From NCBI GenBank assembly GCA_014728085.1, contig WJMF01000111.1, positions 1 through 32,823 on the forward strand: DNA of 32,823 nt, written 5' to 3'. The position numbers and the translations under genes were made by a program. Below the pieces are notes generated by a model. The model was not told the DNA's origin. It did not search any database and saw only the letters and a list, made by a program, of their open reading frames with translations. Source of the stretch: Candidatus Zhuqueibacterota bacterium (GTDB lineage Bacteria > Zhuqueibacterota > Zhuqueibacteria > Residuimicrobiales > Oceaniaggregativiventaceae). Numbering within the stretch: the stretch's first letter is position 1; the number at the start of each line of letters is the position of its first letter. Of this stretch, positions 7,701 to 31,419 are shown one piece after another.

Positions 7701-7975
7701 CAGGCTGTGCACCTTTCCTCGACCCCTCTATTCCTGGCTTGCCAACGCTCGCAACTCGATCCGGGTCATCCCACGGCACATAGAATCCACTCCTACCGCT
7801 GCTAGCTTCCGCTCCTGACGGGGTTTGGGGCGTATCTATTGCGTAGGACCTGGATTTTCAACATTGCTCGCGAGGGTAAGTTCAGAAACGAGCAGACCTC
7901 GAAAAGGAATTCAACCCTGCTATAGCGGATTGCAGGTTACAGGGCACCGCTAGCTCCCCGTCTAGCACAGCCTTG
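7701..7975 (-). ncRNA. ffs: Signal recognition particle RNA, large bacterial type with Alu domain
   Basis: The minus strand matches the long scRNA form known from Bacillus. The 5' part contains the Alu-domain core GGTGCCCTGTAACCTGCAAT, followed by GAGGTCTG. The S-domain apex is GTCAGGAGCGGAAGCTAGCAGC interrupted around a GGAA tetraloop, keeping the GTCAGG and AGCAGC strands of the Ffh-binding asymmetric loop. The ends GGCTGTGC and GCACAGCC pair to close the molecule. Compared with the usual TCC-GGAA-GGA tip, here it is AGC-GGAA-GCT, a compensated change. The 5' end abuts tRNA-Ala, so it is probably released by tRNA 3' processing; exact ends are estimates. The RNA joins Ffh to target membrane proteins to the translocon. 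Confidence 0.92.
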
Positions 7976-8048
<73 letters not shown>

Positions 8049-8051
8049 GAA

Positions 8052-8140
<89 letters not shown>

Positions 8141-8220
8141 TGACAAAAACAATACCGGATCCTTTTCCGGTCAAACAAAACAAGCGACCGGTCTTTGTCT
8201 GCGTTTAGGTCGCTGTACAC

Positions 8221-8311
<91 letters not shown>

Positions 8312-8316
8312 GTTGT

Positions 8317-8775
8317 TTATTTTTGACGAATATTCTTAAAGAACTGTTTTAACAACGACCCGGATTCCTTTTCGCCCACACCGGCTATAACCTCTGTGCG
8401 AATATCCAGATTGCGGTTATTCAAAACCTGTAGCGCAGAGCCGTCTGCGCCATAACGCGGATCACGTGCAGCATAGACCAGCAAAGGAATTCTGGCGATG
8501 AGGATGGCACCGGCACACATGGGGCAGGGTTCCAGAGTTGTATAAAGAGCGGTGTCGTCCAGCCGCCAGGAAGCGGCCGCGTGGGATGCAGCGGTTATCG
8601 CCACTATTTCAGCATGAGCGGTGGGGTCCTGCAGCGTTTCGATCAAATTGTGACCCCGTCCTATCACCTCGCCGTCTTGCACCACCACAGCTCCAATGGG
8701 AACCTCCTGCCGCTGATATGCCTTTTGCGCCTCCTCGAGGGCCATGCGCATATAGTGATGGTGATCAGGTTGCAC
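8317..8775 (-). CDS. tadA: tRNA adenosine(34) deaminase TadA
   Basis: A zinc-dependent deaminase that converts A34 of tRNA-Arg(ACG) to inosine. The 152-residue protein has the catalytic HAE triad at residues 54-56 (His ligand, Glu proton shuttle) and PCPMC at 83-87 supplying the two Cys ligands. EVPIGAVVV near 24 and the DPTAHAE context are diagnostic. The start used is GTG at 8775, seven bases after GAGG; a shorter product from the ATG at 8754 or 8748 cannot be excluded. It is flanked on both sides by tRNA genes, and its known substrate tRNA-Arg(ACG) is encoded just upstream. Confidence 0.95.
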
Positions 8776-8793
8776 GTTTGATCCTCTGAATAG

Positions 8794-8867
8794 CGCGCCC
8801 GGAGGAAGTCGAATCCCCAGCCTTCTGGTCCGTAGCCAGATGCTCTATCCAATTGAGCTACGGGCGC
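8794..8867 (-). tRNA. tRNA-Arg(ACG)
   Basis: Acceptor GCGCCCG/CGGGCGC, anticodon stem TCTGG/CCAGA around CTACGGA (anticodon ACG), T loop TTCGACT. A34 is the expected target of the neighbouring TadA. No encoded CCA. Confidence 0.95.
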
Positions 8868-8880
8868 GTATGGTGTTCGG

Positions 8881-8952
8881 TAGCGCGTACGGGGATCGAA
8901 CCCGTGTTACCGGCGTGAGAGGCCGGCGTCCTAACCGCTAGACGAACGCGCC
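8881..8952 (-). tRNA. tRNA-Glu(CTC)
   Basis: Acceptor GGCGCGT/ACGCGCT, anticodon stem CCGGC/GCCGG around CTCTCAC (anticodon CTC, reading GAG), T arm ACGGG/CCCGT. The first acceptor pair is G1:U72, which is less common. First gene after the promoter at 8968-8996. Confidence 0.93.
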
Positions 8953-8967
8953 ATAATCCAGCTTGTA

Positions 8968-8996
8968 AATATACAAAGCTGTAGAGAAAATGTCAA
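8968..8996 (-). promoter_or_regulatory. Strong sigma70-type promoter of the tRNA-tadA-SRP-dnaX cluster
   Basis: On the minus strand a perfect TTGACA (8996-8991) and TATATT (8973-8968) are separated by exactly 17 bases. The predicted start is about 8-10 bases before tRNA-Glu. Confidence 0.85.
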
Positions 8997-9204
8997 CCTT
9001 TTTCAATTAACGACAAGCGGGCCGGGTTGGTTCCCCGTACTTGCATAACCCTCGTCGGCCGATAAGACCAATTGGCGAGCTTTATCCGGCAAAAATAATA
9101 TTGATAATTCTTGACTATTTGTGCTCCAGTTTGCATTTTAAGAATAAGGTCATCTGACCTCACGAATAATGACACTTTATTAATTATGGCAAGGGTTGCA
9201 AGCG

Positions 9205-11448
9205 ATGAGCAATTTGAAGCATATTATCTTTTTTATTCCCCTTTTATTTTGTGGCATGGATTTTTCTCAGAGCAGCGACAGCCTGATCACCCTCGACGGT
9301 GAGATTGTCGATTACCGGCAGAACGGCTTTCCCGGCCAGAGTATCCGCCTTTGAATTACCAGCCTGCCGTTGTGCTTTGATATCATCGATGAAAACAGCG
9401 CGTTTACCCTCACCTTTCCCAAAAAGCTCGTGGGTATGCAGGAGCAACCCGGGGTGCATGTCCCTGACGTGTTCGACCTGACGCCCACCTGGCCCAATCC
9501 CGGCAGCAGCGTGATCAGATGGGACTACTCCATGCCCTGGTCCACCCAGGTGTCTGCGACGATCTATGACATCCTCGGAAAAGAGGTGGGACAGATCTTT
9601 GACCAGCACCAGATCCCTGGCAGGTACACCGCGTCGTTTGACGCGACAGGGCTTCCCGCAGGGGTATATTTCGCCATGGTCAGGGCGAATGGCGCCTGGA
9701 GCGCGCAGAAATTCACTGTGCTCTCCAGGGACATGGGCAACTTCCAGGATGTGCGAGGCGCAGCAGAAAACGCGAGCTACCAGTCCTTTGCTCCGAACGG
9801 AAGGGTGCTGAGCAAGGGAGCCCTTGCCAGGGAGTATCTTGAGAACCTCGAATCCGACATCCTGATCGGCTATGACAATGCCAACGGCTTTCGGGTCGTG
9901 CAGGCTGGAACCACGAACGTGGACATCATACAGTTCCTTGCCAAGAGCGGAGGATCGATAAGCATAAAAGGCAACGCGCTCGCCCGGTTCGACGGCTTGC
10001 CGCAAGAGCCGGTCCCGGTATTTGCCGGCCAGGACACGACCATTGTCATCGGTGGCGTGTATGACGACCAGCCCTTTGACCTGGACAACCTGGTGCTGAA
10101 CTGCAACAACATGACCGTGCAGAACGTGAGCTACGGGGACAACGCCCTGGCGATGCAGGTGCGAATCGACGGAGAAAATCCCTATATCCAGGGCCAGTAT
10201 ACCGATCCCCTCGGCGGCGGGCAGGAATTCTCCCTGGACTTTGCCGTCCGGGAGAACGCCTTTACCAGTCCGCATGTGACGCTGCCCGCAATCCTTGAGG
10301 ACACGGACGAGGATTATGATGTGCTCTACGACCTTGCTTCCGTTCTTTCTGTGGATCCCGAGGGACTGACATACAGGGTGCGGTCGTCGTCTCTTGACGT
10401 CGGCGGAAAGGTGCTTCCCAACACCAGCCTGCTGCAGTACTTTACCGTGGATCCGGACTGTAACGGCCCGGCAACGCTGACCATCGAGGCCTACCGCGAC
10501 GGCGTCAAGGTCGGCCAGACCACCGCCGAGATGGAGGTGGAGCCGCAGACGGATCTCAATTTCAAGGTAAAAGATCTGCACGACGGGCTTGCGATTGCCC
10601 AGGACTATGTGCGTCTGCTGGATATGACCGATAATAAAGTCGCCGAGGGCTATACTGATATCGAGGGCCAACTCAACATCCAGATCGAAGAGTCGGGCGT
10701 CTATAAGCTCATCTATCATAAGGAAGGCTATTATGACAGGCAAGTCGGAACCGTCAACGTGGATAGCGACACGTCAATTACCGAGGTCCGCCTGAATAAA
10801 GCGACGTTTCCCATGGCGCTGCTCAACGAGATTGCCAGAGGGGGTGATTACACTACTAATCCTGATTCTGCAACAGGTGATGTCAATCGCTGGGTCACTC
10901 CTCCGCTTGAGATCGTGATCAATACAAATAATGACAGATCAGGAGACGTGGAGAATGATACGACCGCTGCCTACGAATGGGCCAAGAAACTGATGGAAGA
11001 AGAAATAAATCCCGCAACAGTAAATGATACATATCCTGACGGATTCTTCTATGGCGTTCGTGTGGAGAAAAAGAACCTGCCAACGAAAGACTACCTGTCT
11101 GCAGACATCTATTACGATGGTAAGATCATGATCCAATTCGTTACGAACCTTCCCGCCGCAGCTCTAAGACAAACGAAAGTGAACAGACAGACAGGCGAAG
11201 TGGAGGCAGCGACAATAATTTTGCAGGCAGGTCTTTCTCCTGAGGTGTATTCGGGATATGTGAACACTCTTCTTCATGAACTAGCATCAGTTACCTTTCG
11301 AACTGATGATAACTCAGATGCCATTAATACCAGCATTTTTTCGCACAATAATGGTGACCTAGATTATATCACAAAAAGAGATGGAAATCTAATAAGAGGA
11401 GTGTATTCCAGACCAACAAAATGGAAAGCTAACGATAAATCGTTATAG
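9205..11448 (+). pseudogene. Secreted multidomain protein with in-frame TGA, internal sorting-like domain and degenerate zincin-like region
   Basis: From ATG 9205 the frame reads a signal-peptide-like start (MSNLKHIIFFIPLLFCGMDF) and a carboxypeptidase-regulatory-like segment, is broken by TGA at 9352-9354, and continues open in the same frame to TAA at 11448. After the stop come SAFTLTFPKKLVG (end of the same beta-sandwich), then a domain resembling type IX sorting/FlgD Ig modules (FDLTPTWPNPGSSVIRWDY, IYDILGKEVGQIFD, LPAGVYFAMV), unusually near the N-terminus. Beta-rich regions follow, with a second regulatory-like module near 10690-10800. The last 200 codons resemble a matrixin-like peptidase (AGLSPEVYSGYVNTLLHELA), but HELAS lacks the second zinc His. 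The DNA turns from GC-rich to AT-richer near 10830. No function is assigned; most likely decaying. Confidence 0.6.
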
Positions 11449-11508
11449 TGCTCTATTCTTCTATTCTTAGAGGGTTTCTAAAAGAGAAAAAGAAATGATA
11501 ATGTGCTG

Positions 11509-12126
11509 TCATCTTCCTTCTACTGAGTCTCTCGGAGTATACCAGGTATTGACCGGATTCCCAATATCACACCATGCGTTTGTTTGGCCATACATATTCA
11601 ATTCACAGCAGGGAATCTGATCATCGCAGTTAGCTGATGAACCCACACAGAAGTCATTCCAGCAGAGATGATTACAGGGATCTTGATTAATACAAGTTTC
11701 TCCAATACTGCCAACCTCAATGCACAAGCCAGCCCCAGAATTCAAGTCAGGATCCCAGTAACACCCAGCGGCTGCTCCAACACCGCAGGATGATTCATCG
11801 CATTGCTTGCAGTCTTCACAACTGTTATCGTTGCAGCAATCACAATCAGGATCATCGCAGTCCTGCAGCCCGTCGCAGTCGTTGTCCCTTCCATCGCTGC
11901 AGCTTCCGGGCAGCGCTGCCTCGCTCTCCGCGGCCGGGCAGCCGGACTCTTGAGCATCCACAAGCCCGTTGCAGTTGTTGTCCATGTTGTCGCAGCAGTT
12001 CTCCAGCGAGTCCGTCTCGCCGATCGGTGTGGTGCGCCGGCTGCAGGAGCCGATAAGCTCGCTTGCGCACATGCACTTGTAGCCGGCCAGGTCCTGGGTC
12101 GTGGAGCCTGGATACTCGCCGCCATT
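11509..12126 (-). pseudogene. Cys-rich MopE-like fragment with DNDCDG metal-binding motifs, 5' truncated
   Basis: About 205 residues, very rich in Cys and Asp, with two copies of the putative calcium/metal-binding motif: DNMDNNCNGLVD and DGRDNDCDGLQD, followed by clustered CxxC pairs and a C-terminal Cys-rich domain ending SVEGR. Such repeats occur in secreted MopE-like and related surface proteins. The frame is open upstream to an ATG at 12198, but those codons overlap a different, recognisable reading frame (the DUF4143 fragment), so I regard 12126 as the junction and the start as missing. It has no signal peptide of its own. It converges tail to tail with the broken gene at 9205-11448. Confidence 0.55.
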
Positions 12127-12128
12127 TT

Positions 12129-12329
12129 TTAAAAAAAATCCTCGGGCTGCATGCTCAGGCACTCTTGAATGGAAATTCCATCCGCACCGATCAGCCATTT
12201 TTTTGATTGCGGATACCTTTTCGAAAACAGTGACATGCCCGGCAGGAAATTTTTCCTATAGCTGCTTTTGACTTTCAGAGCGGCAATTTTATCACCTTGT
12301 CCTGAGATTGGACTGGAGTGAAATATTGT
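12129..12329 (-). pseudogene. C-terminal remnant of an AAA-14/DUF4143 ATPase
   Basis: In this frame 66 codons are open from a TAA at 12330-12332 to TAA at 12129. The translated tail contains KIAALKVKSSYRKNFLPGMS, then FSKRYPQSKKWLIGADGISI and QECLSMQPEDFF. This is the usual end of DUF4143-type ATPases, where a conserved EVKS is followed by a PGM...F segment and a final LLVG.GGI...EFLS. The Walker motifs and almost the whole protein are absent upstream, so it is a remnant. It ends in a T8A6 tract right at the junction with the MopE-like fragment. Confidence 0.6.
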
Positions 12330-12664
12330 TTATGAGCAACAGCGCTCTCTTCATTAAATTTGGAAAATTTACTTGTTTTTTACAGCCGGCAAGCCTAATT
12401 TGTGGCAGAAAAGGTGAGTGGCATTGCCGGAGGCGGAAATAAATGGGGCACAAGAAGGACCCTGCAGCCAAATAAACCCTTTATACCCCTTCTCTTATGT
12501 GTTTGGGCATTTTTCCCATCCCCTATGGGATGGGAAAAAATAATTAACTGTACACAATTTGTGCCAAGCCGTCCACCCTCGGCTATTTGGAAACAAAACT
12601 CACCCTTAACTGAGATTGGTTTGACTGGTTACAAATAGTTATCATCCACTTGACAGGGGACTAG
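12330..12664. other. Non-coding interval upstream of the kinase gene
   Basis: No convincing gene. It contains the perfect palindrome at 12510-12539, a pyrimidine-rich stretch before it, and a GGGGA ribosome-binding site just before the kinase ATG. Stop codons break all longer frames with plausible starts. Confidence 0.6.
12510..12539. repeat. Perfect 13-bp inverted repeat, 4-base loop
   Basis: Arms TTTTTCCCATCCC and GGGATGGGAAAAA surround CTAT. The polarity (T before, A after the G/C stem) is the same on both strands and opposite to an intrinsic terminator, so a regulatory or RNA-structure role before the kinase gene is more likely than termination. Confidence 0.7.
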
Positions 12665-15316
12665 ATGATAGGCAAAACCATCTCACATTACACCATTCTT
12701 AAAAAGTTGGGCCAGGGGGGTATGGGAACGGTTTATTTGGCTCAAGATCTCATCCTGCGCCGAAAGGTGGCGATTAAATTCCTGCATTCCTTTCTGTTGG
12801 ACAATAAAGAGAGCAGAGCAAGGTTTCGGACAGAAGCAGTATCGGCTGCAACCTTGCAGCATGAAAATATCTGTCAAATATACGATTATGCAGAAGAACC
12901 CGATAATGCTTATATTGTCATGGAGTATATCGATGGTAAAAGTCTGAAGACGTTGTTGACAGAGGTTAATGCTCTGCAACCCGACGTCGCAGAGCGCATT
13001 ATCAGGCAGATTGCCGGGGGATTGCTCCATGCGCACCAGAAAGGCATTATTCACAGGGATATCAAGCCGGATAATATTATCATAGAGCCAAACGGCCGGG
13101 TGGTCCTCACCGATTTTGGCCTGGCAAAACTCAAGGATCAACCCAAACTTACCAAAACCGGTACAACACTCGGCACTGTCTGCTATATGTCCCCGGAACA
13201 ATTGCGTGGTGAAAACGTCGGTCCGGAAACCGACCTCTGGGCCCTTGGCATGCTTTTCTATGAAACACTATCAGGTGCGCTACCCTTTTGTGGTAAAAGT
13301 GAAAGTGCTGTCATTTCCGAGCTTCTAAGTCCGAATCCAATACTCAAAGCGTATCCCAAAAAGCTCACGCCCTATGCATATATCATCACCCGACTGCTGA
13401 ATAAAAACAAAAAAATAAGATTTCATTCGGCGGACGCTTTGATTACAGCTCTTGAAAGGCGTAGCAGATGGGACTTTCTTCGAATCCTCAGATTCAGGTA
13501 TAGAAAAACGCTCGCAAGGATTTTTGTGGTTTTGCTGCTGCTGGCAATGGGCGGTCATCTATATACACTCTTTATCAACTCCAGAATCGGACCGGTGCCG
13601 TGGCTGGCCACCTCAACCAAACTTGTACGTTTAACCTCACTCTATGGGGATGAGATGGGCAGGCTCTCTGCTGATGGAGGTTCTATTATCCTCTATCAGG
13701 GCGATCGTACACTTAACAGCCAGGACATTGATACTCAACAGATGAAGGTTCTGTATGAGTCAGATGTTGGCCAGGTCATTTCACCCGTGGGCAGTCCTGA
13801 CGGCAACTCCATCGCCTTCATATCAGACCGAATGACGGCTGTTTCGATCTACAATCATAGCAACGGAGGTGTTCGCCAACTGGTACCTCCCGTTGAGGGC
13901 AACATTTATCAGGTGGCTTGGTCACCCGATTCACGATTTATCACCTATTCCTGTGATACCTTCAAAGAACAAGTGGGTTGTGGGTTATATTTAGTGAGTG
14001 TTGAAAGCGGCGAAACCCGGAAATTGTTCACCCGTTACCCGTCAATGAATGAATTCAAAGCCACCTGGTCACCAGATGGCCGCTATATCGCCTTCCAGGA
14101 TTATTCATACCCGGATTCAAGTATGGTCATCCGGCTTGTAGACCTTGCAGATCACAGCATTTCCGAGCCGCTTTTTCATCTCAATGGCCACATTTCTGCC
14201 TGGTTTATCGGTGGCATGGTATTCAGTCCGGATGGAGAGTGGCTGATCTTTGCCGATATTATAAATGGATATACGGAATTGCTGGCACAATCGGTGGATC
14301 TGGCGCAGCAAAGAATCAGAGGCCGGCCGGTCCCCATTACCCGCCTCGCAGGGGATGGCTTGCCCGCCTGGCCGGCATTTGACAGTAGCGGCAAAAGGCT
14401 TTCGTTCAATGTTATCGAAAATGTCGAAAACATTTATACTGCTAATCTGGATATCGAAAAGAAAATGATTTCTTCGCCCTTTATTGCCGTGGCAAAAAAC
14501 AAGGAAAAAGAGCGTGATGCCTGCTGGTCTGTCACAGGAGATTCAATAGCATATGTCAAAAAATGGCGGGGACAATATTGGATCATGCTTTGGAAACGAA
14601 CAACCGACCAAATCGAAATGGTGTATGAGTTAAATGAGCCGATTAAACAGCTTTGTTTTCGTCCACATCACAACGCCTTGTCTTTTCTAAGAAATTACCG
14701 GCTCGAACAGATTAATTTAAAGAGCAGAAAGGCAGAGATTCTGTTCCCTGCAGATACCACTCTCAACCTCGGCATTCACGCCTATACCTGGGATCTACCG
14801 GGGGATATCCTCTATGTTTCAGCAAACACTTCCAGGTCGATTCAGGGGGATAGCGACATTCTACGGATTCATGATTTGAAGTCGGTTACCGATACATTAA
14901 TTTCCCATGCATTTATTATCAATACTGCAGGAATGAAAATTTCTCCTGATGGGCACTTTCTTGCATTTTACCGCTATGCTGATGACACCACAGGACCTAC
15001 GTCCCCCTTGCTGGCATACCTTGAATTGGCTTGCCCAAAAGAGCTTATCCTGACTCGGGTAAAAACAGTAGAGCCTGTTGGTGATTTTTCATGGACCGTA
15101 GATGGATCTATGATCTTGTTTGATTCCGTTGGTGACGACTTGTCTGCGAAACGGCATTTCAATTTAATAGACATCGCTACCGCCACTCGTCACCGGTTAT
15201 CGCTCGAAAATATAGACAAAAACGTCCTGAACGGACCCATCTCTCCGGATCAAAAAAATATCATTCTCTATGAAAATATGATGGATGCAGATGTCTGGAT
15301 GTTTGAGTTGGAATAA
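12665..15316 (+). CDS. Transmembrane Ser/Thr protein kinase with C-terminal PD40/TolB-like beta-propeller
   Basis: An 883-residue Hanks-type (PknB-like) kinase. The glycine loop is GQGGMGTVY (16-24), with catalytic Lys38 in VAIK, HRDIKPDN with Asp132, DFG with Asp150, and GTVCYMSPEQ as activation/P+1 loop, so all catalytic residues are present. One membrane helix lies at about 286-305 (IFVVLLLLAMGGHLYTLF). The rest is probably extracytoplasmic and made of repeated PD40 blades: SPDGNSIAFISDR, SPDSRFITYSC, SPDGRYIAFQDY, SPDGEWLIFAD, SSGKRLSFNV and later SPDGHFLAFYRY and SPDQKNIILYE. GGGGA before the ATG supports the start. The propeller may sense a ligand outside and signal to the kinase inside; the target is unknown. 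It stands alone on its strand ahead of asnB. Confidence 0.93.
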   Translation: MIGKTISHYTILKKLGQGGMGTVYLAQDLILRRKVAIKFLHSFLLDNKESRARFRTEAVSAATLQHENICQIYDYAEEPDNAYIVMEYIDGKSLKTLLTEVNALQPDVAERIIRQIAGGLLHAHQKGIIHRDIKPDNIIIEPNGRVVLTDFGLAKLKDQPKLTKTGTTLGTVCYMSPEQLRGENVGPETDLWALGMLFYETLSGALPFCGKSESAVISELLSPNPILKAYPKKLTPYAYIITRLLNKNKKIRFHSADALITALERRSRWDFLRILRFRYRKTLARIFVVLLLLAMGGHLYTLFINSRIGPVPWLATSTKLVRLTSLYGDEMGRLSADGGSIILYQGDRTLNSQDIDTQQMKVLYESDVGQVISPVGSPDGNSIAFISDRMTAVSIYNHSNGGVRQLVPPVEGNIYQVAWSPDSRFITYSCDTFKEQVGCGLYLVSVESGETRKLFTRYPSMNEFKATWSPDGRYIAFQDYSYPDSSMVIRLVDLADHSISEPLFHLNGHISAWFIGGMVFSPDGEWLIFADIINGYTELLAQSVDLAQQRIRGRPVPITRLAGDGLPAWPAFDSSGKRLSFNVIENVENIYTANLDIEKKMISSPFIAVAKNKEKERDACWSVTGDSIAYVKKWRGQYWIMLWKRTTDQIEMVYELNEPIKQLCFRPHHNALSFLRNYRLEQINLKSRKAEILFPADTTLNLGIHAYTWDLPGDILYVSANTSRSIQGDSDILRIHDLKSVTDTLISHAFIINTAGMKISPDGHFLAFYRYADDTTGPTSPLLAYLELACPKELILTRVKTVEPVGDFSWTVDGSMILFDSVGDDLSAKRHFNLIDIATATRHRLSLENIDKNVLNGPISPDQKNIILYENMMDADVWMFELE

Positions 15317-17540: not shown

Positions 17541-19067
17541 TTATTTTTCAAACACTGTCCACTGATAGACCTGTTCGCTGATCTCTTTGGCGGGATTTTT
17601 GAGTTTTAATCCTCTGGTCACGCCGACCGGTTTGGAGATCTCCTGGGTGATGATGTCGATAAAATAGCCATCGCCCAAATTTTGCCGGTGATAATCCACC
17701 GGCGGCTGTTTTTCGGTACTCGCCTGCAAAATAAGCTGCTCCACGCCGGACGGTTCACAGATGACGCCGTCAAACGGGATTCTGATCCACTGATTCACCT
17801 GGTCGGTGGCGATAAAATAATTGTTTTTTATCAGCGTTTTGGTGTTGTCGGAAAAGATATAGATGAGGCGTATATAGCAGGATTTGTTGGTTCGAACAAA
17901 AATTTCCGGTTCTTCCCCATAGGTATAAATGACCGGCCCTGCACTCATCTTGTCCGTGCGCAACTCTACTTTGAGTGTGTTATCCCGCTGTATGGCCTTG
18001 TAAAGCGCGAGTTTGTTTCGCAGCGCCTGGTCGAGATTTTCCGGTTTGATCCGGTCCCAGCCGATCCGGTCACAGGTAATGCCATTGACAAAAACCTCAC
18101 TGCTCCTGTTCATGTTGCTGTTTTTCGATTCCATGCGCACGGATAACAGCACACCATCGTCCATTTGTAAAATTTTACCCCTGAAGACAAAATCCGCCTC
18201 GTCGTATTGCGAAAAGGAGAGCGGGTACCAGCGGTTGTCTTCGGCGATGCGATTGGCACTGATCTCGGAAAAATTGCGGCCAAAAGACGAGACAAATCCG
18301 GTGTTTTCATATTGCAGAGGGTAAAAAACAAAACTGCGCTCCTGCCCCTTCCCTGCGAGAAAAGGTTGCACGATCTCTTGCACAAGCGCGCTTGTCGGTT
18401 TTGGCGTCGTGCCGGACAGCCGGGTGAGCTTTGTCTCTGCCGAAGAAGTCGACGGCAAAGTGTTGATCTCGCTGTCGAAATCGTTGTGCCAGTTGTTTAA
18501 AAAGAGGTAGATTTTGAGGTCTTCTTCGAGCTGCTTCGATTGCGATATACAGGCTTTATAATTTTCAATCGCTTTTTGAGGGTTTTGGTCGGTCAGAGCT
18601 TCTGCGAGCTTGAAGCTGTTTTTGATCTCTGCCATAGCCGTTTCTATCTTTTTTCTGAACGCATTTTTCATATCCGATGCCGGAATGCCGACCAGGGCAT
18701 AAGCGTAATTGCGGTCGCTTTCGTTTTTCAGCACTTTGTAACCCATCACTTCCAGGTCTGTTCTCACCTGCGTTTCGCTGAGAAAAAAATCCTCCACCCC
18801 GGAACCGGCTCCAATTCCTGTTTCCGTCGTCCGGTTAATGGTTTCGCCGGAAACACGGCTAAAAATAACCGACGCCGCATCTTTCAGAGCCTCTTCTTTT
18901 GCTTTCAATGCCGCCTCGGCCGGTTTCCCCGCTTTGATTTCAGAAAACCCCTTGCCGACAAAATATCCGGGATATTGCCCGGCAAGATCCGCATCGTACC
19001 AATCCGGCATTGCCGGCATGCCTGCCGTGGTGACAAAAAAAAGGATGATAAACATTTTTGCTTTCAT
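17541..19067 (-). CDS. Exported protein with LPP20-like N-terminal and DUF4384-like C-terminal region
   Basis: A 508-residue protein starting with a signal peptide (MKAKMFIILFFVTTAGMPAM) without a clear lipobox. Residues about 25-140 (YPGYFVGKGFSEIKAGKPAE, KEEALKDAASVIFSRVSGET, YALVGIPASDMK) resemble the LPP20/DUF400-like domain in which repeated gene products add cofactors or subunits at the surface; this is a family resemblance only. The middle has a helical stretch (KSQKAIEN-like YKACISQSKQLEEDL). The C-terminal part (SAGPVIYTYGEEPEIFVRTN, CYIRLIYIFSDNTKTLIKNN, IRIPFDGVICEPSGVEQLIL) matches the DUF4384 pattern. AAGGG precedes the ATG. It converges on asnB. Function unknown; probably periplasmic or outer-membrane associated. 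Confidence 0.7.
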   Translation of the reverse strand: MKAKMFIILFFVTTAGMPAMPDWYDADLAGQYPGYFVGKGFSEIKAGKPAEAALKAKEEALKDAASVIFSRVSGETINRTTETGIGAGSGVEDFFLSETQVRTDLEVMGYKVLKNESDRNYAYALVGIPASDMKNAFRKKIETAMAEIKNSFKLAEALTDQNPQKAIENYKACISQSKQLEEDLKIYLFLNNWHNDFDSEINTLPSTSSAETKLTRLSGTTPKPTSALVQEIVQPFLAGKGQERSFVFYPLQYENTGFVSSFGRNFSEISANRIAEDNRWYPLSFSQYDEADFVFRGKILQMDDGVLLSVRMESKNSNMNRSSEVFVNGITCDRIGWDRIKPENLDQALRNKLALYKAIQRDNTLKVELRTDKMSAGPVIYTYGEEPEIFVRTNKSCYIRLIYIFSDNTKTLIKNNYFIATDQVNQWIRIPFDGVICEPSGVEQLILQASTEKQPPVDYHRQNLGDGYFIDIITQEISKPVGVTRGLKLKNPAKEISEQVYQWTVFEK

Positions 19068-26578: not shown

Positions 26579-26872
26579 TCAGGATATGCTTTTGATTTTC
26601 TCATAATCTTCGCTATGCTGTTGAAGGGTGTCCCACATGTCGACATTTAATTGTAGGTTTAGCCAAAAATCCGGAGTTGTGTTAAAATATTTTGCTAATC
26701 GAAATGCTGTGTCTGTCGTTATAGAGCGCTTGCCGGTTATGATTTCATTGACTCGCACCCGGGTAATTCCGAGCGCATCTGCGAGTTGTTGCTGAGTCAT
26801 GTTCAAGGGCTCGAGAAATTCATATTTTAATATCACTCCGGGAAGAGTGGGTTTGCGATTCTTGGGTAACAT
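26579..26872 (-). CDS. higA: HigA-type antitoxin, XRE family
   Basis: A 97-residue antitoxin of the HigA/VapI type that should bind its HigB partner and repress its own operon. The helix-turn-helix is MTQQQLADALGITRVRVNEI, followed by TGKRSITTDTAFRLAKYF and the family signature NTTPDFWLNLQ. An AGGAG lies seven bases before the ATG. It follows higB on the same strand (HigB first, as usual). The frame is intact although the toxin gene is broken, so it may now be an orphan antitoxin. Confidence 0.92.
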   Translation of the reverse strand: MLPKNRKPTLPGVILKYEFLEPLNMTQQQLADALGITRVRVNEIITGKRSITTDTAFRLAKYFNTTPDFWLNLQLNVDMWDTLQQHSEDYEKIKSIS

Positions 26873-26915
26873 GAAAAAACTCCTGGTGATATTGTACCAG
26901 TTCTACGTCAAATAT

Positions 26916-27164
26916 TTAACCATCCCTAAATACAAAACAGAGACGCCATGGTCCATTAACCGATATTGCCCACTGGGCCTCTCTATTTCCATGCAACGCA
27001 TGTAGGTGATCGGAGGGTGGTGCTGTAAGATCTTTACTGTCTTTGGCCGAATTCAACACATCAAGTTTCCTTAGCAAACGATTGTTCAAACCTGGAGGGA
27101 CTCGTTTATGCTTTCCCGTGTTCCAAAATGTTTCAAGCCGGGATTGTCGAAAACGTTCGATCAT
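26916..27164 (-). pseudogene. higB: HigB toxin truncated by an in-frame TAA
   Basis: A RelE/HigB-type mRNA interferase, recognisable over 82 residues (MIERFRQSRLETFWNTGKHK, LHALHGNREAQWAISVNGPW, RLCFVFRDG). Family members continue with one more beta strand ending in a VEIxDYH-like motif. Here a TAA at 26918-26916 interrupts, yet directly after it the same frame encodes IFDVELVQYH, the missing strand. The truncation removes the conserved C-terminal His region, so the toxin is probably inactive unless the stop is read through. It is followed by higA. Confidence 0.8.
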
Positions 27165-30735: not shown

Positions 30736-31137
30736 CTAAATAGTTATATCGGACAAATTTATTGTAATATTGGGAAATGCTTTTATTAGCTGCTTGTCTG
30801 TTGTAATAAGTTTGGCCCCTAAATCTTTTGCTAATGCCACATATTCGCAATCATAAGCACTACAACCAGATTCTTTAGCTAACTCTAGCACATCCTTTGA
30901 TTGGACTTGATATTCACCGCCCTGCATTAACTCTTCTGCTTTCTTCACCAAGAACAGAGCTTGTGATAGGTCGAAATATTTATTCCTGACGTATGTTGCC
31001 AGAACGTTCCGATATTCACTGCGCCATAATAATGGTGCAATCCACTCGGGATCTTTTTTTAGTAGCTGTTTGGCTTTATCTGTATACCTACCTTCAATCA
31101 AAAGATAAGCAATAACATTCGCATCTATTACTTTCAT
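30736..31137 (-). CDS. PIN-domain toxin (VapC/FitB-like)
   Basis: A 133-residue PIN ribonuclease. The acidic metal-binding residues are in place: Asp5 (KVIDANVIAYLL), Glu41 (WRSEYRNVL), Asp96 (CSAYDCEYVALA) and Asp114 (LITTDKQLIKAFP). The start overlaps the antitoxin stop by four bases (ATGA), the usual operon layout. VapC-type toxins cleave specific RNAs, often initiator tRNA. An attC-like site lies about 90 bases after its stop. Confidence 0.93.
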   Translation of the reverse strand: MKVIDANVIAYLLIEGRYTDKAKQLLKKDPEWIAPLLWRSEYRNVLATYVRNKYFDLSQALFLVKKAEELMQGGEYQVQSKDVLELAKESGCSAYDCEYVALAKDLGAKLITTDKQLIKAFPNITINLSDITI

Positions 31138-31376
31138 AGTCTTCCGAATTCTTTATACTCTTTTAATTTTTCGTCGGTTAAATAGGGAACATCAATATTT
31201 TGATAAAAGTTTTCGATTTGGCTAATAAAATCATCCGGATTAACTTTTCGACTTTTAATCATATTTTCGATGCAATAAATAACTTCATTATTAATGCTCC
31301 GACGATTAAAGGAAGCAGTAGCCTTTAGTTTAAGGTACAGCTCGTTAGGAATATTTTTTACTGTAATTGTTGCCAT
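31134..31376 (-). CDS. Ribbon-helix-helix antitoxin (FitA/VapB-like)
   Basis: An 80-residue antitoxin. The N-terminal ribbon-helix-helix (MATITVKNIPNELYLKLKAT, ASFNRRSINNEVIYCIENM) is of the Arc/FitA type and should bind the operator. The C-terminal tail (IENFYQNIDVPYLTDEKLKE) would bind the PIN toxin. The ATG at 31376 is chosen because GAGGTG stands six bases before it; a GTG three codons upstream overlaps that site. Confidence 0.9.
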   Translation of the reverse strand: MATITVKNIPNELYLKLKATASFNRRSINNEVIYCIENMIKSRKVNPDDFISQIENFYQNIDVPYLTDEKLKEYKEFGRL

Positions 31377-31419
31377 TGAAATCACCTCATTTAATTACTG
31401 CAAAATGAAACCATAATGA

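Follow-up and report, generated by a model that had tools for sequence, protein, structure and literature searches.

The window analysed here is the whole of contig C10 (32,823 nucleotides) of a Candidatus Zhuqueibacterota genome, a metagenome-type assembly of 5,189,837 bases in 244 contigs that is 97.9% complete with a reported contamination of 0.03. The left part of the contig carries housekeeping genes and the right part ordinary genes, and beside a tRNA pair, up to a kinase gene, lies a patch of damaged reading frames. The features of this region are:

8793-8952, minus strand: tRNA-Arg(acg) and tRNA-Glu(ctc), the end of a conserved dnaX-SRP-tRNA-tadA-tRNA block (ARAGORN)
8953-9204, no strand: putative rearrangement breakpoint zone, from which the ancestral dihydroorotate-dehydrogenase-like (DHOD-like) neighbour is missing (locus comparison, contig C21)
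9205-11448, plus strand: ORF A, a broken multidomain gene of secreted type (translation and profile searches; signal peptide and first domain by eye)
9352-9354, plus strand: in-frame TGA within ORF A (reading frame)
10831-11860, no strand: AT-rich island over the 3' parts of ORF A and the Cys-rich frame (GC and GC3 steps)
11509-12126, minus strand: Cys-rich reading frame without a 5' end, convergent with ORF A (translation)
12127-12131, no strand: junction of the Cys-rich fragment and the ATPase tail, a T run followed by an A run (sequence, GC)
12129-12329, minus strand: C-terminal remnant of a DUF4143/AAA_14-type ATPase (tblastn to an intact relative)

All three damaged genes that a preliminary description had reported as packed together here were recovered. 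ORF A runs from an ATG at 9205 to a stop at 11448, a span of 747 codons with one internal stop, the TGA, and the 697 open codons behind that TGA compare with a longest frame of 239 and a mean of 114 in 500 base shuffles. The start resembles a signal peptide and is followed by a CarboxypepD_reg-like pattern that is cut by the TGA (both recognised by eye), then by a FlgD/Por_Secre_tail-like domain, a cadherin-like domain, a second CarboxypepD_reg-like domain and an AT-rich C-terminal domain, which agrees with the signal-peptide-bearing multidomain gene described earlier. The best supported of these domains is a Por_Secre_tail (T9SS-type) match to PF18962 at residues 46-122 of the 697 (E 2.4e-8, 34.6 bits against a cut-off of 27), which was also found with TIGR04183 (E 5.9e-7, 29.4 against a cut-off of 23); the cadherin-like match was weak (E 0.083), as was the second CarboxypepD_reg match at residues 404-474, which fell below the Pfam cut-off. 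ORF A thus resembles the T9SS-type sorting and FlgD Ig-like proteins (PF18962, TIGR04183, PF13860) in having this domain above the curated cut-off. T9SS cargo proteins, however, carry the sorting domain at the extreme C-terminus, and because that of ORF A is close to the N-terminus and is followed by about 575 residues, a role as a C-terminal sorting signal is unlikely. Reassignment of the TGA codon was considered and rejected, as translation with table 11 leaves the window's other long genes open and ORF A contains a single TGA.

The C-terminal part of ORF A had one convincing relative among the 82 genomes of the phylum set (own genome included), in a genome of the same class, G039 (31% identity, E 6.2e-22). 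This homologue (locus L003, 201-1860) is heavily broken by stops and several frame changes. Its similarity to ORF A carries on across the position that corresponds to 10831, and its opening order is the same, with a sub-threshold CarboxypepD_reg followed by a FlgD_ig domain above cut-off, near the start of the gene as in ORF A. A DUF5615-like PIN gene (by eye) lies downstream of it in G039. Matches in two further genomes, G056 and G072 (E 0.004-0.005), were treated as chance after examination of their loci revealed nothing convincing. The C-terminal part had no match in viral contigs, phages, plasmids or PHROGs, and a longer ORF A query retrieved from plasmids only matches to the sorting-domain region, in three records.

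Zincin metallopeptidases carry an HExxH zinc-binding motif and a later Met-turn. We take the HELA of ORF A, with the S-I-F-S that comes later, to be a zincin-like pattern: at the position of HExxH, ORF A reads HELAS and the broken homologue HELAR, neither a full HExxH, and S-[I/V]-F-S follows in both at the place expected of a Met-turn. None of the peptidase family models matched ORF A in Pfam and profile searches, a comparison of the C-terminal part with the PDB by sequence gave nothing meaningful, and an AlphaFold model of the C-terminal 294 residues had a mean pLDDT of 30, too poor for a structure search. Judging from its sequence, ORF A was probably once a secreted or surface protein built of Ig-like modules and a C-terminal domain of zincin-like sequence, and it was probably lost through the stop codon in its first domain.

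The Cys-rich frame (11512-12126) lacks its own start and continues into the ATPase tail to 12255, which bears out the earlier account of a Cys-rich fragment without a 5' end. At 248 codons it is barely longer than chance would allow (shuffled maximum 228), so the case for its being coding is made by its Cys-rich repeats and by a third-position GC of up to 0.86. None of the 81 other genomes in the phylum set yielded a homologue, and the frame had no match in viral contigs, plasmids, Pfam, NCBIfam or PHROGs.

The ATPase tail, also as described before, aligned to residues 340-395 of the intact 396-aa ATPase of a relative (39% over 56 aa, E 2.4e-11, tblastn), with similarity ending at 12299. The intact relative matches PF13635 DUF4143 (4.4e-26) and PF13173 AAA_14 (2e-23), while the tail itself has no Pfam match, its AAA_14 and DUF4143 domains being gone, and 12001-12700 showed no further significant similarity. 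By this alignment the tail is a remnant of a DUF4143/AAA_14 ATPase rather than a member gene, matching the last 56 residues of that relative and differing from intact members in that only the tail is left. Such genes are common in the order, with matches in eight of ten genomes searched (own included). Another DUF4143-type gene, at 1498-1868 of locus L076 in G012, has suffered an internal loss that leaves its front and tail (by eye), so decay of DUF4143 genes is not unique to the window; in the part of the literature open to full-text search, no paper contained both "DUF4143" and "pseudogene". The stop of the ATPase tail falls precisely at the beginning of the Cys-rich fragment, and at this junction (12127-12131) GC changes abruptly from 0.65 to about 0.42. 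A strong, terminator-like palindrome (12509-12540, z -4.9 as single-stranded DNA) stands between the tail and the kinase gene, and was seen in no fetched locus except those overlapping the window.

Base composition changes sharply within the patch. The preliminary description had GC high in 9250-10830 and lower afterwards, and the fall itself was confirmed (0.571 against 0.43 in 10831-11448); it does not last, as GC is 0.652 again in 11860-12126. Because the GC-rich composition returns, 10831-11860 is an AT-rich island, near host composition, that lies between two GC-rich pieces and spans the 3' halves of the convergent genes. The reference for composition was a sample of 274,462 bases with a mean GC of 0.456, taken from up to the first 20 kb of each of 20 further contigs of this genome (C1-C9 and C11-C21). 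The GC of 9250-10830 was above that of 318 windows of the same size from the own genome (rank 1.0 after rounding), and 9355-10830 exceeded all 174 sampled own ORFs in both GC and GC3 (rank 1.0), a comparison in which the script warned that at least one sampled ORF had an undefined codon score. Foreign origin is not proved by high GC alone, since katG-like and CitM-like ORFs on this contig are GC-rich as well (0.568 and 0.556, GC rank 1.0 after rounding). Codon usage of the 3' part of ORF A fell at the 0.6th percentile of sampled own ORFs.

A single-step model placed the change in ORF A at 10831, where GC3 drops from 0.73 to 0.39 with a log-likelihood gain of 36; none of 500 permutations gave more than 8.6. 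Across the 163 own ORFs with at least 200 codons, those of the window included, this step was the largest (38.0; next 13.8) and the only GC3 fall of at least 0.30, one other ORF having a rise of that size; for the relatives' loci described below (17 of the 20, with 95 ORFs), the largest step was 20.8, a rise near a 5' end. The Cys-rich frame falls from a GC3 of 0.84 to 0.40, a step of 22.1 over its 205 codons and of 10.2 over the 248-codon frame. In the L003 homologue GC is 0.47-0.61 and drops to about 0.40 in the neighbourhood of the second CarboxypepD_reg-like domain, which is near, not exactly at, the step of the window, and since GC falls there too, the split appears to be old. The preliminary description had allowed for an assembly join; at 10831 this is very unlikely, because the broken homologue spans the step within one gene.

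The conserved surroundings of the patch were traced through tadA, which was found in 27 of 30 genomes searched (own included), and flanks were compared for 20 of the 26 relatives with a tadA match. All but one of these 20 loci have tRNA-Arg(acg) and tRNA-Glu(ctc) beside tadA, with 0.9 to 12.2 kb of flank compared beyond tRNA-Glu in the 19; the exception, L057 in G008, has tadA without the usual flanking tRNA-Arg and tRNA-Glu. Neither pieces of the patch nor relatives of the kinase gene occurred at any of the 20 loci, apart from generic sorting-domain matches in four. Intact versions of the damaged genes at the same locus in close relatives, which the preliminary description had named as evidence against it, were likewise absent from these 20 loci within the lengths compared.

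The gene first to the right of tRNA-Glu is gltX-like in L056, L072, L073 and L074 (by eye). In all three loci from the same family (L058, L060 and L064), tRNA-Glu adjoins a DHOD-like gene, followed by PFOR. The PFOR of the own genome is on another contig (C21:6464-10051), where the order is that of L058, with KaiC-like, fusA, pgsA, HAD, PFOR and DHOD-like genes (of these names, all but PFOR and DHOD were assigned by eye). Beyond the DHOD-like gene, C21 continues with arylsulfatase-like, RtcB-like, phosphoglycerate mutase, GalU-like, HflC and NrdD genes, the first of them standing in the place expected of tRNA-Glu. The ancestral gene order is therefore split between C10 and C21: this lineage has lost the junction of DHOD and tRNA-Glu, and the patch is immediately next to the break, on its tRNA side. 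On the right flank, a search of seven relatives for ORF 17544-19067, made for ancestral context, gave nothing, and a search of genome contigs for the kinase gene gave a single distant locus.

We interpret the patch, with a probability of roughly 0.6, as the remnants of at least three unrelated, partly foreign genes at a point of chromosome rearrangement in this lineage. The ancestral junction between tRNA-Glu and the DHOD-like gene would have been broken and the tRNA-Glu side joined to new DNA; fragments of foreign composition would have been placed beside tRNA-Glu with or after the rearrangement; and decay would have followed by a nonsense change in ORF A, loss of the 5' end of the Cys-rich gene and loss of most of the ATPase gene. 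The genes presumably no longer work, and the GC-rich pieces would come from another lineage. The patch itself could be older or younger than the breakpoint. Pseudogenes at synteny breakpoints are a general kind known in bacterial chromosomes, and the patch is like them in that gene remnants lie where conserved order stops; it differs in that only one side of the break was examined in detail, in an assembly with a gap. A large insertion in place of a rearrangement, of at least about 55 kb across two contig arms, is formally conceivable because the assembly is in 244 contigs, and the rearrangement is favoured over an island of this size because C21 carries ordinary chromosomal genes past the break. 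Apart from one curious feature, the GC3 step in ORF A, these relics at a breakpoint are mostly ordinary genome decay.

We think it improbable that the patch is an assembly artefact in which the DNA of other organisms was joined at 12127-12131 or at 9240-9360. The junction at a T/A homopolymer run, where GC passes from 0.65 to about 0.42, the metagenome-type assembly and the absence of the Cys-rich gene from the rest of the phylum set all speak for such a join, and 12127-12131 is where the earlier suggestion of a join keeps some plausibility. Against it, ORF A is open across 10831 and a homologue from another family has both sides in one gene, housekeeping genes occupy the left part of the contig and ordinary genes its right part, and the reported contamination is small.

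It is similarly doubtful that ORF A still works, with its TGA a sequencing error or bypassed, which would leave the two minus-strand pieces as the only relics. A single stop among 747 codons, which could be a base error, and the 31% identity that the C-terminal domain keeps to its homologue are consistent with a working gene; yet the stop falls in the first domain and removes everything behind the signal peptide, the only good homologue is also broken, and the codon usage of the 3' part is far from that of other ORFs of the genome.

A more speculative suggestion, which we hold to be quite unlikely, is that ORF A and L003 represent an undescribed secreted family whose AT-rich C-terminal module (degenerate zincin-like, HELA[S/R] ... 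S-[I/V]-F-S) is exchanged among different GC-rich stalks of Ig/FlgD type, the whole gene having been repeatedly inactivated, independently in two families of the phylum. The AT-rich module on a GC-rich stalk is known here from two broken genes only. Polymorphic toxins with exchangeable C-terminal domains combine a conserved front with a variable, low-GC toxin module and an immunity gene; here a GC3 step was seen in ORF A and a different front in L003, and no immunity gene or toxin family was recognised. Because the Cys-rich gene also has a GC-rich front and an AT-rich tail, the two genes may have had their 3' ends replaced together in a single exchange. A small hint that secreted proteins of this phylum exchange modules comes from the GC3 step within a gene, combined with a GC fall at a nearby domain of its distant homologue.

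Integration of a mobile element at the tRNA genes by a tyrosine recombinase, followed by decay, is highly unlikely: the tRNA-Arg/tRNA-Glu pair adjoins the patch, whose GC is atypical and whose pieces are absent at the relatives' locus, but tRNA-Glu has the patch at its 5' end, which is not the side normally used in tRNA integration, no 12-mer of tRNA-Glu recurs on C10 outside 7900-8960 or on C21 (the far boundary may be on another contig), no phage or site-specific integrase was found among the window proteins scanned (the contigs being incomplete), and the ancestral neighbour survives elsewhere, on C21, in its own gene context. The two ends of the patch also had no direct or inverted 11-mers in common. 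The preliminary view of foreign, eroded DNA inserted beside tRNA genes thus holds for the decay and the foreign composition, and gives way to a breakpoint as regards the mechanism: the patch probably came with the rearrangement or later, and not through integration directed by a tRNA. More generally, tRNA-adjacent "islands" in metagenome-assembled genomes can be rearrangement scars, and the two can be told apart by tracing the ancestral neighbour.

Elsewhere on the contig, two toxin-antitoxin pairs were found at 26582-27164 and 30739-31385, one consisting of a HigB-like toxin and an HTH_3 gene, the other of a PIN-domain gene and a FitA-like antitoxin. The end of the contig (31616-32823) has four 23-bp tandem units ([T/C]ATTCCGG...TGCCACC) followed by an IS21-type transposase-like frame (by eye), which is probably why contig C10 stops there.
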